Below are positions 15,961 through 51,987 of a stretch of DNA of 52,509 nucleotides, piece by piece. The notes beneath the pieces are model-generated. The model was given only the letters and a program-made list of their open reading frames with translations. It searched no databases and was not told the DNA's origin. Location: positions 1 to 52,509 of the IMG/VR virus record IMGVR_UViG_3300009124_000019. One strand, 5' to 3'. Position numbers and translations under genes: made by a program. Position 1 is the first letter of the stretch. Every line of letters begins with the position of its first letter. This DNA comes from a virus.

Positions 15961-17847
15961 TTACTCCCCTTCATTACGAAGGAAGTTGTTGTATGCAACA
16001 GAGATAATAGTTGCTTCTCCACCACTGGTTTGACCCTGCAGAGTCTCTCCAACTGTGAATAGGAAGTTGGGATCATTACTGGTAATATCTTTTACCGATA
16101 ATGTATACTGTCCTTCCTTAGGACCAGTAACTCTAGATACAGTTGTTGCTCCAACTCCAGAAGTTTGACCTGTCAACACTTCTTCTCCACCTGCACCAGG
16201 CACACTGAAGAATACTGCATTGTTATAGGTAATAACGATATCAGCAGTTGCAACGTGTGCATCGCCGTCTCCAAGAGCACCTGCGGACTGTACAGTAGCA
16301 ACCAGTTGGTTTAGACTACCATCATAGATCTGATCACCGATTTGGAAGAGAGTAGTATTGGTGCCACCAAGTGTCTCCTCAATACCAAATTTAGATGATG
16401 AAATACCACCATCCAAATTGACTTGGTTTTCAAACTCAGTCCCAGCATTGAGAAGGTCTGGAATACCATCGCCATATTGAGTGTCACCATTTTCATCCAG
16501 ATATTCTTCATCATCATCTTCAAACTTTCTATTCTGAATGATGCTGAAAGGTAAGGTGAATGCAACGATATCGTCACCTTCAGATTCGACTAATGTATGT
16601 GGTGCAACACCAGTAGCAGAAGATCCAGATGTACCTGCAAAGAATGCAATGATTTGAGACTTCTCACCAGATCTACCACCATCGATGAATGCCAATTCAT
16701 CAACTTGGAATGTCAGATACAGTGCTCTCTCAACAGGATCCCAGTCATAAACAATAGCGACTCGGTTGCTAGCATTTTCAACAACTCTTCTTACCTTATC
16801 GGTAACGGAAAACTGATAGTTTGTAAGACCTGTAGAGGAATCATCTTGAAGTGTATCGAGGATGACCTTCTGATCAAATCTAAAGTTAACACCTCTATCA
16901 CATCCAGTAAAAGAATTCGCAGTCTTTCCTGTATATCTGACAATCTCTCTGCCGAGAAGGACCTTACCTGATCCAGGATATGGTGTAGTTGATTCAACAT
17001 AAATTGTCTCATCACCACTTCCAACGTTGGCGAGAATACCTGAGAGGTTGTAAAGTACTGAGTTGAGAGACTGACGATTTCTTGCAGTCCTAATTAGGTT
17101 AGTGTCTCTAGTAAAAATAACCTGAGGGTCATTGACATAACCACTACCAGGAGTTAGGAGATCAATCGTAGTGATAGATCCAAGGTTAATAAATGCTTCT
17201 GCTGTAGCACCAGATCCACCGCCACCGATGATTTGAATCAGAGGAGGATCTTCAAAGAATTCACCAGAGTTGGTTAGGGTAATACTGGTAACTTGTCCAA
17301 ACGGATTAACACCAGCAACACCAGTAGCACCATCACCGCCACCACCACTAATGATGATGTTGACATCTTCTTCGGTATAATTTTTACCAAATTGCTCAAT
17401 AGCAAGACCAGTTACAAGACCAGTGATTGGGACCAACTCAGATCCAGATCCACCACCACCTTTAATCTCCGCTTCAGCATCAAAGTAATCATCACCAAAT
17501 TGCGTCATCTGGAGGAAATCAACAGCACCAGTGCCATCATTCTTTAGGAAGATCTTAGCGTCTGCTGGTGCTGAGCTACCATCATCTGTAATTTCTAATC
17601 GGAGAGGATCATACCCCTCACCTGGATCAAGTACTTCTACTGCAGTGATCTCACCAAGATCGCCTTCGATGACTGCTCTAAGGACTGCCTCTCTAATAGG
17701 TGTGCCACAATTGCCAACACGAAGTCTAGGTGGATCATTGGGGTCATACCCAGATCCAGGATTTGTGACATATACTTCCCTTACACCAAAGATACTATTG
17801 AAGAGGGGAAATATCTGAGCACCACTACCAGGGACTGTTCTTACCAT
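15961..17847 (-). CDS. GxGY-repeat virion structural protein (628 aa)
   Basis: Residues 20-260 consist of several GxGY/GGGGxGA units (YVTNPGSGYDPNDPPRL; VLDPGEGYDPL; IIGGGGSGATAEAFINLG; LLTPGSGYVNDPQVIF), a beta-rich repeat common in cyanophage structural proteins. Residues 290-335 carry a module (TIYVESTTPYPGSGKVLLG, then TGCDRGVNF) like one in the giant gp7 near residue 840. The C-terminus has two GE.l.GqTSG units. The ATG overlaps the stop of the 495-aa gene (TAATG), so it is probably translationally coupled to it. No enzymatic motif is seen. It is likely a baseplate or fibre component, and the exact role is unknown. Confidence 0.85.
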   Translation of the reverse strand: MVRTVPGSGAQIFPLFNSIFGVREVYVTNPGSGYDPNDPPRLRVGNCGTPIREAVLRAVIEGDLGEITAVEVLDPGEGYDPLRLEITDDGSSAPADAKIFLKNDGTGAVDFLQMTQFGDDYFDAEAEIKGGGGSGSELVPITGLVTGLAIEQFGKNYTEEDVNIIISGGGGDGATGVAGVNPFGQVTSITLTNSGEFFEDPPLIQIIGGGGSGATAEAFINLGSITTIDLLTPGSGYVNDPQVIFTRDTNLIRTARNRQSLNSVLYNLSGILANVGSGDETIYVESTTPYPGSGKVLLGREIVRYTGKTANSFTGCDRGVNFRFDQKVILDTLQDDSSTGLTNYQFSVTDKVRRVVENASNRVAIVYDWDPVERALYLTFQVDELAFIDGGRSGEKSQIIAFFAGTSGSSATGVAPHTLVESEGDDIVAFTLPFSIIQNRKFEDDDEEYLDENGDTQYGDGIPDLLNAGTEFENQVNLDGGISSSKFGIEETLGGTNTTLFQIGDQIYDGSLNQLVATVQSAGALGDGDAHVATADIVITYNNAVFFSVPGAGGEEVLTGQTSGVGATTVSRVTGPKEGQYTLSVKDITSNDPNFLFTVGETLQGQTSGGEATIISVAYNNFLRNEGE

Positions 17848-19334
17848 TAGACAACTACGAGATTACCAACCATGCCAGAGTGAATTGTGCATTGATACAC
17901 ATATGTTGTGCCTGCTGCAAGAGACATAGGCACAGTCCAATATTGGACACCTTCTTGTGATCCAGTCACACCAGCGGTTACGGCAGATCCACCACTTGTC
18001 TGTCTCAGAGCAAATGGGTGACCACCACCAGTAGTATTATTAAACCTATATGTGAAACCACGATAAACGTAGATCGTTGGGTTTCCACTTCCACTCCATC
18101 CATTGTTGTTGAAGTTATATCCAGAGACTGTGTTTCCAGAGATCTCAAAACCAACAGCAGCAGATGCAACCGCTTCAATTTCACCGCTTGTATTAGTGAT
18201 GAAACTCTGATTCTCTGACAGAGACTGACCAGAAGCAAGATATAATTCAGCAGCAACACTAAGTGTGCTACCAGAAACAGATGTAGTAATACCGTTTCCA
18301 CCAGCAATAGTTGCCGATGCTTCAGTAGATCCAGCAACTATTGATCCACTGTCTCCGTTGATTGCACCAAAGATATTCTGGTCAGCGTTGGGAGAATCGT
18401 TGGTAACTGTTAGATTAGTACCAGAAATAGCAGTGGAGATCCCAGCACCGCCAACAATATTGATAGTAGAAGAAGCACTACTAGCCGTCGATGATCCCGA
18501 ATCAGATCCGATAGTAGAGAAGAGATTTTGGTCAGGATCACCTAATGCCCCCGTCATGTTGATGGTTACAGTATCGCCAGAAATAGCAGTAGCGATATTT
18601 GTGCCACCAGCGATAGTCAAGACATCAGTAGCAGCAGATGCTGTAGTCTGACCACTGTCGGCATTGATAGTTTCAAACAAGTTTTGAGTGGTGCCACCAC
18701 CACCGCCACCTTCATTTAGATCATTAGCAGGTTCCCATGCTGAATTGGTAGCATTCCACTTAAGTACTTGACCTTCGGAAGGACCACCACCAGCTGTCAT
18801 GTCAACATCGGTTAAGTCACCAACAGAAGACCCAGTATCGATAAGTTGTGTCCATGCTCCATTATGGGCAAAGTAACCATGATTTTCAGCATGTACATGA
18901 GCAAACATTCCATGATGGGTAGATGCATCGGGAAGATCACCTATAGCATCGAAGTGATTTGAATACTTTAATTTGCCATCTGTGCCATCAATATATGTAA
19001 GAGGACTACCAGTGCCCCCACCCCAGAATCTAATGTTGCCACTACCATTTGGTTGGATAGTAATATCACCATTTGATTCTGAGACAATCTTGAATGTTGA
19101 GACATTCAAATCTGCACTCAGAGTGTCAAAGTGTGCCTCAGTAAACTGAGTGCCAGACCATTTAAGCACCTGACCAGAAGCTGGAGTGCCTACATTCACC
19201 AACAGATTGGTATCATTACCAAGAGAGGTGTAGATCTCGTCAATGACACTATTGAGTTTAATTGCACCGTCCCTGAGACTATCTCCAGTCCCGTCATTTG
19301 CTGACGATCCAATATTAAGATTTTGCTTTGCCAT
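17847..19334 (-). CDS. Fibre-like virion protein with C-terminal cupredoxin-like domain (495 aa)
   Basis: The N-terminus (MAKQNLNIGSSANDGTGDSL, then KLNSVIDEIYTSLG) is the head sequence common to cyanophage fibre-like proteins. Three repeats of about 45-50 aa follow at residues 214-364, each starting QN(L/I)F..I..DSG and containing I.GG.(N/A)I.T..SG. The last 100 residues look like a cupredoxin: GGGHPFALR with H439, and YQCTIHSGMVGNLVVV with C482, H485 and M488. The order His...Cys-x2-His-x2-Met is that of type I copper sites, with the Cys-His-Met spacing of amicyanin. Related YxCxxHSGM endings occur in other cyanophage structural proteins, but copper binding has not been shown to my knowledge. 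A late promoter lies 22 bp upstream. Its stop overlaps the next start. Confidence 0.85.
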   Translation of the reverse strand: MAKQNLNIGSSANDGTGDSLRDGAIKLNSVIDEIYTSLGNDTNLLVNVGTPASGQVLKWSGTQFTEAHFDTLSADLNVSTFKIVSESNGDITIQPNGSGNIRFWGGGTGSPLTYIDGTDGKLKYSNHFDAIGDLPDASTHHGMFAHVHAENHGYFAHNGAWTQLIDTGSSVGDLTDVDMTAGGGPSEGQVLKWNATNSAWEPANDLNEGGGGGGTTQNLFETINADSGQTTASAATDVLTIAGGTNIATAISGDTVTINMTGALGDPDQNLFSTIGSDSGSSTASSASSTINIVGGAGISTAISGTNLTVTNDSPNADQNIFGAINGDSGSIVAGSTEASATIAGGNGITTSVSGSTLSVAAELYLASGQSLSENQSFITNTSGEIEAVASAAVGFEISGNTVSGYNFNNNGWSGSGNPTIYVYRGFTYRFNNTTGGGHPFALRQTSGGSAVTAGVTGSQEGVQYWTVPMSLAAGTTYVYQCTIHSGMVGNLVVV

Positions 19335-19355: not shown

Positions 19356-19363
19356 TTATTTAG
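19356..19363 (-). promoter_or_regulatory. Late promoter variant (CTAAATAA) for the 495-aa gene
   Basis: The minus strand reads CTAAATAA 22 bp upstream of the ATG. Its TAA is the stop codon of the 530-aa gene (19360-19362), so promoter and stop codon share bases. Confidence 0.55.
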
Positions 19364-20952
19364 GTGCCATCGAAGGTTTGTGCCGTCGAATCCATTGTAC
19401 TAGATGTGCTATCAAATCTATTCTGAAGACTTCCACCACCGCCAGATCCTGCCACAGTCAATGTAACTGGGTTGGAATCGAGTGGGGAGTTTGATGCTCT
19501 TCTATCTAAAGGCACACCCAAAGGTCCGATCAGACGGACTCGATACTTATAACCAGTCATGTAAGCAAGACCAGTTACTTGATATTCATTAGATGTAGCG
19601 CCAGTGATAGCAGCAAACGCGAAACCTCCATCAGTAGATCTGTACCATTGATATCCAATGGGTCCGTTTTCTGGAGAGATCTCTGCTTGAATAGTAAAGG
19701 TTGCAGTTTCTCCAACATTGATAGTTGCATTTTGTGGTTGCAACGTAATCTGTATTGTTGGAAGAGGGGGTGCTTCTCCACCACCACCACCTGGATCGGG
19801 AGGTGTTACTGTTGATGTGGTAAACGTAGTGTCGATAGTTTCTCTAGTTGTCAATCCCATGATGTATGGGAATGTAGGAGCATCTACATTCTCAGGATCA
19901 ACTGTCATAAAGTATGCATATGTCCCATTAGGATACTCTGGGGTTACACAAAATCTACCATTATGATAGTCAAGGTCCCCAGACCCCTCAATGTATTCCC
20001 AGTCCTGTATGAGGGACCCTGGAGGGGGATTCTGTAAGGTATTACCATATGCAGGTCTACCATCGACCTCAGTGGATTTAGTGCTATATGAGCTTTGCAT
20101 TGTGACAATGCCACTCAGATTATCCCAAGGAGTTGTATACCCATAAGGTCCATAGATTGGGAATCCATCAAATGCAACACCAACCATTTTGGAATGTCCA
20201 TCAGGATGTCTGATGTTGTTTCCATTATATTGTGTAGTGCCATAATAATCATTGTATGCTGCCATGACAGAATTCGTCTTCCAGCAATCTAGGAAGTGTG
20301 AATCATGTACATGGTATACACCCGTTTGCTCTGGGTGACCACCACAAACATCATCGCCAAAATCTACTGGAGATCCCTCAAAGTGTGCATTCCAACTGAA
20401 TCCTGATGGTGGGTTACCACCAGCACCAGCACTTGGATTAAAAATTGCAACACCATTTGATGCAACACCAATATTGCCAAGAGGAGTTAAACCTCTACCA
20501 TTTCGTTGATCGTAATACTCATATGTGCCAGTCGTTAGAGATTCTTGATCTCTCATAATCAAATCAAGACGATCATCTGTTGCTAACCAACACTCATCTT
20601 CAACAGATGTAAAGGTAGTACCTTTATAGAGAAACATTCTCTTGATACCATCACTAAAGACAAACAGAAGACGATCTCCTACTTTAATCTCATCGTTAAA
20701 CAGAGTATTGTCTGCATTGGAGATGTCAATAGACCTAATAAAACCGTCCTGATTCCAGGTATTAGTATCAAACGTCCTAGAGATACCAAACGTCCCACCA
20801 CGATAATAGAAGTCGTGATCGAAGTCCTGCTCCTGGACTGTATTTGGATTGTTGGAGTTTGGAAACGTACCATACCCCACAGGGTCTGGCAGTCCATCTG
20901 CCGACACCGTGAGGATTTTGGTAGCGTCGTTATAACTGGCGGTTGCAGTCAT
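19360..20952 (-). CDS. YHYH-domain protein with C-terminal Ig-like domain (530 aa)
   Basis: Residues about 200-355 form a YHYH-type domain: GGHPEQTGVYHVHDSHFLDC, then MVGVAFDGFPIYGPYGY, and further on DLDYHNGRFCVTPEYPNGTY with YFMTVDPE. Around residue 400 a poly-Gly/Pro linker (PPDPGGGGGEAPPLP) leads into an Ig-like domain of about 100 residues (QPQNATINVGETATFTIQAE; GYQWYRSTDG; YKYRVRL). The first 190 residues contain beta-rich sequence with no firm match. The protein probably sits in the baseplate or fibre network, as YHYH proteins are frequent in cyanophage virions; the biochemical role of YHYH is not known to me. It shares both modules with the giant gp7 just upstream. A late-promoter-like box is only 11 bp from the ATG. 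Confidence 0.88.
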   Translation of the reverse strand: MTATASYNDATKILTVSADGLPDPVGYGTFPNSNNPNTVQEQDFDHDFYYRGGTFGISRTFDTNTWNQDGFIRSIDISNADNTLFNDEIKVGDRLLFVFSDGIKRMFLYKGTTFTSVEDECWLATDDRLDLIMRDQESLTTGTYEYYDQRNGRGLTPLGNIGVASNGVAIFNPSAGAGGNPPSGFSWNAHFEGSPVDFGDDVCGGHPEQTGVYHVHDSHFLDCWKTNSVMAAYNDYYGTTQYNGNNIRHPDGHSKMVGVAFDGFPIYGPYGYTTPWDNLSGIVTMQSSYSTKSTEVDGRPAYGNTLQNPPPGSLIQDWEYIEGSGDLDYHNGRFCVTPEYPNGTYAYFMTVDPENVDAPTFPYIMGLTTRETIDTTFTTSTVTPPDPGGGGGEAPPLPTIQITLQPQNATINVGETATFTIQAEISPENGPIGYQWYRSTDGGFAFAAITGATSNEYQVTGLAYMTGYKYRVRLIGPLGVPLDRRASNSPLDSNPVTLTVAGSGGGGSLQNRFDSTSSTMDSTAQTFDGT

Positions 20953-44891: not shown

Positions 44892-45425
44892 TTAGGATGC
44901 TAGCACAGTTGGGGACCCATATGCAACCACTGAGGAGCATGGATATGAAAATCCAGGGAAACCCACTCCAAGAGGATCCAAGATACGAGCAACAGGGACT
45001 TTGAATGCATATGTTGTAAGTGTTGATGCTTGTACAACTCTTTCATGCCCCTTCCCACCTTGATCTTCTTTTGTCAACCGACTACACTCGATAGGTGTTG
45101 GTACTGGACACACGCTGTTACCACATGGGCACATATAAGTAATGATATTTGTACATGCTGAAATATGTGGTGAAAATGCATCACCATGAATCATAATCGG
45201 TGTACCATTCACAAGCACTGTCGCTCTTTTGACATTAACTGCCTGAAGGGGGATCAATGAAGTAGGTGGCCACCAACATGTAAAGTTTTTGATGTAAATC
45301 GAATATGGGATTGGTGGTGTTTTACATTTCTGCTCGGAATGGATTGTAGCAGGCAAACAAAGTCCATGTCCAGAGCAAGGCATACCATTCAATTGTGCTA
45401 CTGGTCTTAGAAATCCGTATGCCAT
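44892..45425 (-). CDS. PAAR-like tail-spike tip protein (177 aa)
   Basis: The N-terminal pattern MPCSGHGLCLPATIHSEQKC, followed at about residues 65-85 by RATVLVNGTPIMIHGDAFSP and HISACTN, matches PAAR-type proteins. These sharpen the membrane-puncturing spike and bind a metal through His/Cys residues (gp5.4 in T4). The protein has about a dozen Cys, including a CPCGNSVC cluster near residues 98-106 that could bind a metal. A second cyanophage-like tail (ARILDPLGVGFPGFS) ends the protein. Its ATG overlaps the stop of the 1,380-aa gene (TAATG), with GAGGA eight bases upstream. Its place just before the wedge genes supports a tip role. PAAR assignment is by motif layout, not by a literal Pro-Ala-Ala-Arg. 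Confidence 0.65.
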   Translation of the reverse strand: MAYGFLRPVAQLNGMPCSGHGLCLPATIHSEQKCKTPPIPYSIYIKNFTCWWPPTSLIPLQAVNVKRATVLVNGTPIMIHGDAFSPHISACTNIITYMCPCGNSVCPVPTPIECSRLTKEDQGGKGHERVVQASTLTTYAFKVPVARILDPLGVGFPGFSYPCSSVVAYGSPTVLAS

Positions 45426-51342: not shown

Positions 51343-51987
51343 CTATTGTGGGACAAAGTTAGCAGTGAGGGTGATACGTTGATCATTAGGGTTAGTATCA
51401 TATCCATGGGTGATGTGTGATGGATAGATGATAATATCTCCTTCAGACATATCGAATGTACATTCAGTCATATTGTATGGGGTCATATCAGTGGAGCGAA
51501 GTTGAATGACGGGATAATGTGATGATTGTACGTTACGTCTAAATTTAACTGGCGAGTGTAATGTGTGATCGTAGTTAATAAGATAGGTGAGAGAGTAGAG
51601 GCAGTTTGAATGCTCATGAGGAGCATAGATTGCATCCTTGTTGTGTATCTCTAGGTATGAATCTTGAATAGCGAAAATTGCATCGTATTTAAGAGTATTG
51701 TCGTTTGTCCAGTTTACTGAATCAACGAGGAGTTTGTGAATAATAGGGAGATCATTAATGAGTTTATTGTTAGGACCAACTTGAGCAACGTTATGAGAGA
51801 TAGCGTTACGATCTGTTTTAAGTTGTAGATCTTCAGTTGACATCCATTCTAAGATTTGTTGTTTGAAATCATCATGATTTGGCACTGACACTTTAGAAAC
51901 AGCGGAAGGGAATAAACCATAATGCTCACGCTGAATTTTATCCTCTAGGGTGTCAGATAGTGATTGAGTGAAGATGTCTGATGACAT
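51343..51987 (-). CDS. 2OG-Fe(II) oxygenase-like protein (214 aa)
   Basis: Residues about 120-212 show the jelly-roll signature of the 2OG-Fe(II) oxygenase family common in cyanophages: YAPHEHSNCLYSLTYLINYD with the first histidines (H124 and H126), MSEGDIIIYPSHITHGYD with H194, and NDQRITLTANF with R204, expected to hold 2-oxoglutarate. The N-terminal 100 residues are helical. The enzyme would use Fe(II), 2-oxoglutarate and O2 to hydroxylate an unknown substrate. The 214-aa length fits this family. A strong promoter with TTGACA-N17-TATACT is 36 bp upstream of the ATG. No Shine-Dalgarno is evident. The substrate cannot be inferred. Confidence 0.8.
   Translation of the reverse strand: MSSDIFTQSLSDTLEDKIQREHYGLFPSAVSKVSVPNHDDFKQQILEWMSTEDLQLKTDRNAISHNVAQVGPNNKLINDLPIIHKLLVDSVNWTNDNTLKYDAIFAIQDSYLEIHNKDAIYAPHEHSNCLYSLTYLINYDHTLHSPVKFRRNVQSSHYPVIQLRSTDMTPYNMTECTFDMSEGDIIIYPSHITHGYDTNPNDQRITLTANFVPQ

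Follow-up and report, generated by a model that had tools for sequence, protein, structure and literature searches.

A gp9/gp10-like protein within a baseplate gene cluster

We analysed IMG/VR virus record IMGVR_UViG_3300009124_000019 as one window of 52,509 nucleotides, in which the minus-strand open reading frame at positions 17,847 to 19,334 encodes a protein of 495 residues. Its residues 3-64 (19,143-19,328, minus strand) matched PF07880, the T4 gp9/gp10 family, with an E-value of 7.6e-11 and 42.8 bits against a cut-off of 25. The whole protein matched phrog_677 ('baseplate wedge tail fiber protein connector') with an E-value of 2e-137, and its cyanophage relatives are annotated as gp9 or T4 gp10-like. 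From the PF07880 domain and the baseplate genes around it we assign the protein to the T4 gp9/gp10-like baseplate and tail-fibre connectors. A previous reading of the sequence alone had called it fibre-like; it is better named a gp9/gp10-like baseplate wedge/tail-fibre connector protein.

The gene is preceded by a YHYH-domain virion protein and followed by a 628-residue baseplate-like protein and then, next but one, by a gp8 homologue (PF09215); gp6/gp25-like baseplate wedge genes and a PAAR protein lie further along the cluster. The adjoining YHYH protein (530 residues; 19,363-20,952, minus strand) matched PF14240 with an E-value of 1.8e-37, and for YHYH the function of a Zn-dependent tail hydrolase has been predicted (PMC7824862). 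Beside it, a single open reading frame of 6729 residues (20,967-41,156, minus strand) takes up 20 kb of the window and contains numerous GGG..Y repeats and a YHYH-like stretch (WAFDGNPIYGPYGY...YFITID); apparently it encodes a giant virion protein, like those of other cyanomyoviruses. The window also encodes a PAAR-motif tip protein (44,895-45,425, minus strand; phrog_281) and a 2OG-Fe(II) oxygenase (51,346-51,987, minus strand; phrog_81). Among phage isolates we found no close DNA relative. At the protein level the nearest isolate, the Prochlorococcus NATL2A phage Cyanophage P-TIM40, shares 66% identity with residues 1-263 of the connector and 84% identity with residues 24-100 of its C-terminal domain.

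A full-length structural model of the connector was confident only at residues ~130-180 and 390-495. The gp9/gp10-like domain, a putative baseplate anchor, carries a predicted helix at residues 19-37, in a part of the model with low confidence. Three repeats of ~48 residues (residues ~215-363; 18,246-18,692, minus strand), with the pattern NLF/NIF..I..DSG...GG..I.T...G..L.I and paired strands in the low-confidence model, are the probable shaft between this anchor and the C-terminal head. The poor modelling outside the two confident regions probably reflects a shaft that needs trimers. One of these two regions contains an HVH stretch (residues 146-148; 18,891-18,899, minus strand) within the conserved sequence THHGMFAHVHxEGxGYFAHxGxW, which recalls the HxH iron motifs of tail fibres.

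A C-terminal cupredoxin domain with four predicted copper ligands

The sequence-only reading had placed a cupredoxin-like domain with amicyanin-spaced ligands at 17,850-18,160, and had proposed structure prediction as a check. This range covers residues 392-495 and corresponds to the domain that we delimit at residues 390-495 (17,850-18,167, minus strand). An alignment of 65 divergent copies of the domain served as input for both an AlphaFold2 model and a sequence profile. The model was all-beta, with a mean pLDDT of 95 and a pTM of 0.86, and took the form of a cupredoxin. A Foldseek search of solved structures returned 23 matches at E<=0.001, to copper cupredoxins (rusticyanin, amicyanin, copper nitrite reductase and plastocyanin), led by rusticyanin (7e-5), amicyanin (2e-4) and the Hyphomicrobium copper nitrite reductase (4e-4). 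VIA-align superposed the model on the N-terminal cupredoxin domain of the Hyphomicrobium nitrite reductase (Z 10.2, 2.4 A over 93 residues) and on rusticyanin (Z 9.1); its fold list also includes the zinc-bound structure 4hcg. On the strength of the model and these matches, a cupredoxin fold for residues 390-495 is virtually certain.

The translation placed all four proposed ligands where they had been read: H439 (18,018-18,020, minus strand) lies in TTGGGHPFALR, and C482 (17,889-17,891), H485 (17,880-17,882) and M488 (17,871-17,873, all minus strand) lie in YVYQCTIHSGM, in which CTIHSGM fits the C-x2-H-x2-M ligand loop of amicyanin. When the 65-copy profile was compared with the PDB, it matched amicyanin (1.3e-5), plastocyanin (1.4e-5) and also pseudoazurin, and H439, C482, H485 and M488 fell one-to-one on His53, Cys92, His95 and Met98, the residues that hold the copper in amicyanin. 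C482, the predicted thiolate ligand, is the sole cysteine of the protein, so an intramolecular disulfide is ruled out; 24 of 26 full-length homologues likewise have a lone cysteine. In a six-frame scan, C..H..M occurred in no other open reading frame of annotated size in the window, its two further matches lying in stop-rich frames of the plus strand. Profile alignment and family invariance both put His, Cys, His and an axial Met at the canonical positions of a type-1 site, and we consider it very likely that the domain carries a complete, amicyanin-type copper site.

The family model TIGR02657 (amicyanin) was matched by 42 of the 65 family members and PF00127 (plastocyanin/azurin), weakly, by 37 of the 65. 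The window's own domain scored 16.2 bits against PF00127, below the gathering score of 21.2, and 14.3 bits against TIGR02657, for which the cut-off is 110.2; a single-sequence search of the PDB was weak (2plt, E 0.4). The predicted site would work like that of amicyanin, but by the curated cut-off the domain is not an amicyanin. Amicyanin of Paracoccus (PDB 1aac/2gb2) has the same fold and the same short His...Cys-x2-His-x2-Met loop, with all four ligands aligning, but it serves methylamine dehydrogenase as a free electron carrier in the periplasm, whereas here the domain ends a baseplate protein of the virion. With the plastocyanin/azurin family it shares the fold and the ligand types, while the ligand loop of plastocyanin is longer (C-x2-H-x4-M). 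Rusticyanin and the cupredoxin domains of copper nitrite reductases, the best structural matches, belong to an enzymatic or electron-transfer context and show lower sequence similarity to the domain. Cyanophages also carry the plastocyanin gene petE, but as a separate, small, stand-alone auxiliary gene (PMC3037559), i.e. a metabolic gene and not part of a virion structural protein.

Distribution of the module and selection on its ligands

As the sequence-only reading had stated, similar ends occur in other cyanophage proteins, and the domain is in fact widespread in gp9-like proteins of marine cyanomyoviruses and is used in other virion proteins too. Among 50,697 phage records, tblastn matched 312 with the window's domain as query and 324 when another query was used. 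Every matched record is named for Synechococcus, Prochlorococcus, cyanophages or marine phages, with the sole exception of one named just 'Phage'. T4 gp9/gp10 share the N-terminal PF07880 domain, yet records of enterobacterial T4-like phages matched this N-terminal part only and were absent from the cupredoxin-domain matches. In gp9-like proteins the domain stands at the C-terminus, a protein of podovirus P-GSP1 has it at the N-terminus, and one genome can hold several copies (P-SSM5 and P-HM1 have four apiece). Its other phage carriers are further fibre and baseplate proteins, and a library of viral structures shows it in proteins that bear the annotation of proximal tail fibre. Cellular relatives came mainly from marine Flavobacteriaceae, other marine bacteria and large repeat-rich proteins of Prochlorococcus; we found none in plasmid records. 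At three loci in Prochlorococcus single-cell genomes, such repeat-rich large proteins carry a related domain (HPLAFYL...YYQCTNHGLMG), and phage and host surface proteins therefore share the module. This distribution, as read from sequence matches, describes a mobile virion module that also occurs in surface proteins of marine bacteria.

Mean pairwise identity in the 65-copy alignment was 41%, with a minimum of 18%, and only five columns were invariant: H439, Y480, C482, H485 and M488. The full ligand set reported for this one protein is kept in the family at large, since 280 of 288 distinct copies read H/C/H/M; four more read H/C/H/Q, with Gln at the position of M488. The axial ligand of stellacyanin is Gln. 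Such C-x2-H-x2-Q variants, with an axial Gln as in stellacyanin, were seen at three loci (e.g. YYWCHTHTNQG).

Several of our scans used Cys/His patterns and could have been biased toward the motif, although none of the patterns used in the three main viral scans included the first His. We also ran a motif-independent scan, with queries that ended before the motif and patterns taken from another part of the domain. C-x2-H-x2-M followed downstream in all 80 of the 80 loci recovered, in 24 tail variants in which the residues between the ligands varied. With the first 76 residues as query, tblastn recovered 297 records, compared with 312 for the whole domain. The ligand codons are mixed synonymously (CAT/CAC 159/122, TGT/TGC 165/116), and conservation therefore acts on the protein. 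Taken at the level of sequence, the conservation of the ligands is beyond chance and indicates strong selection on the site.

Where the site is lost, its ligands go together, which fits a single functional site. Synechococcus phage RB11-B has a second copy (PV261925.1, 203,664-203,927) with F in place of the first His, A of the Cys and V of the second His; with three of the four ligands gone (GGFPF...YYQASNVAGM), this copy is a natural apo variant. One flavobacterial copy reads T/S/N/Q at the ligand positions.

A proposed copper-stabilised head and its alternatives

In the explanation that we favour, the gp9/10 N-terminal domain would anchor a trimeric shaft to the baseplate, and the cupredoxin domain, judging from its C-terminal place in gp9-like proteins, would form the exposed distal head of that shaft. 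Each chain would take up one copper ion, probably after lysis, because free copper in the cytosol is kept negligible. The metal would mainly lock and stabilise a head that contacts the receptor or the fibre in sea water, rather than shuttle electrons. Bound iron or zinc has such a stabilising role in other tail fibres. Metal ions are known in exposed tail proteins, as in T4 gp37 with its HxH iron and in Alteromonas phage R22Y (PMC11705849), although the iron of these fibres is octahedral, held by His only and located on the trimer axis, whereas a type-1 copper in each chain is predicted here. That the domain binds copper in the mature virion is likely. Given copper, a mainly structural or adhesive role is the more probable one, because the loop between the ligands is variable in sequence, as a conserved docking patch would not be; in addition, the module recurs in many virion proteins and bacterial surface proteins that are unrelated to one another, which argues against a single electron-transfer partner. 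The explanation as a whole, a complete type-1 site on a baseplate head that binds copper mainly for stability, seems to us reasonably probable. A structural role alone leaves unexplained why a redox-type Cys/His/Met set was chosen over a redox-inert one.

It is unlikely that the His/Cys/His/Met set of this cupredoxin fold binds Zn or Fe, or is kept for folding, with copper not being the natural ligand. Cupredoxin-like domains do hold other metals in crystals, as in 4hcg, and a few copies such as that of RB11-B exist without the ligands. Yet such copies are rare, a Cys-His-His-Met set is classically one for copper, and a Met as fourth ligand with Gln as its main substitute points to copper.

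A redox-active copper is a rather doubtful proposition. The head would then exchange electrons with a partner on the host surface or in the periplasm, or would sense copper or the redox state, for example triggering a baseplate change or docking on a host redox protein. Several observations agree with such a role: the full type-1 set, axial Met included, is almost always kept, the closest solved relatives are electron carriers, and phage matches are essentially limited to marine cyanophage-type names. The hosts of these phages have an extensive copper and plastocyanin economy. Nevertheless, no partner is known, the sequence around the second ligand His is variable, the many unrelated carrier proteins tell against a single redox partner, and the baseplate offers no obvious electron path. 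The boldest form of this idea is just as doubtful: cyanophage virions would be copper metalloparticles, whose baseplate type-1 heads act as redox- or copper-responsive devices for host recognition or as an injection trigger. If true, this would be a kind of virion function without earlier description.

Very improbable, in our view, is a lure by which virion-borne copper engages metal-uptake receptors of the host. A buried type-1 copper would hardly be reachable for a receptor, and we know of no cyanobacterial outer-membrane receptor for such copper. The same protein does hold the HVH at residues 146-148, which would suit a lure. Phage-borne iron in HxH motifs and a Trojan horse hypothesis built on it have been published (PMC11705849).

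Finally, a chance match of a short motif in a generic beta-sandwich fibre domain, unrelated to cupredoxins, could account for the weak single-sequence matches (2plt, subthreshold PF00127), but it has practically no chance of being correct, being contradicted by the high-confidence model, by leading structural matches that are all cupredoxins, by profile matches to copper proteins and by invariance at exactly the ligand columns.

Cupredoxins are known as cellular electron carriers and copper enzymes. We found no report of a cupredoxin or plastocyanin-like domain in phage virions in the literature searched, a scope that left out subscription papers, preprints and automatic InterPro labels. The finding places a strongly selected copper-protein site in the machinery by which abundant ocean cyanophages attach, and suggests that many ocean viruses carry predicted copper-binding tips. 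It also supplies a testable function for a module that occurs in tail proteins at present labelled hypothetical. If copper is bound, blue absorbance would be an easy way to approach these otherwise unannotated proteins, virions would add to the copper ligands of sea water a class not counted until now, and the metal could influence how stable virions are or how they adsorb to Prochlorococcus and Synechococcus.
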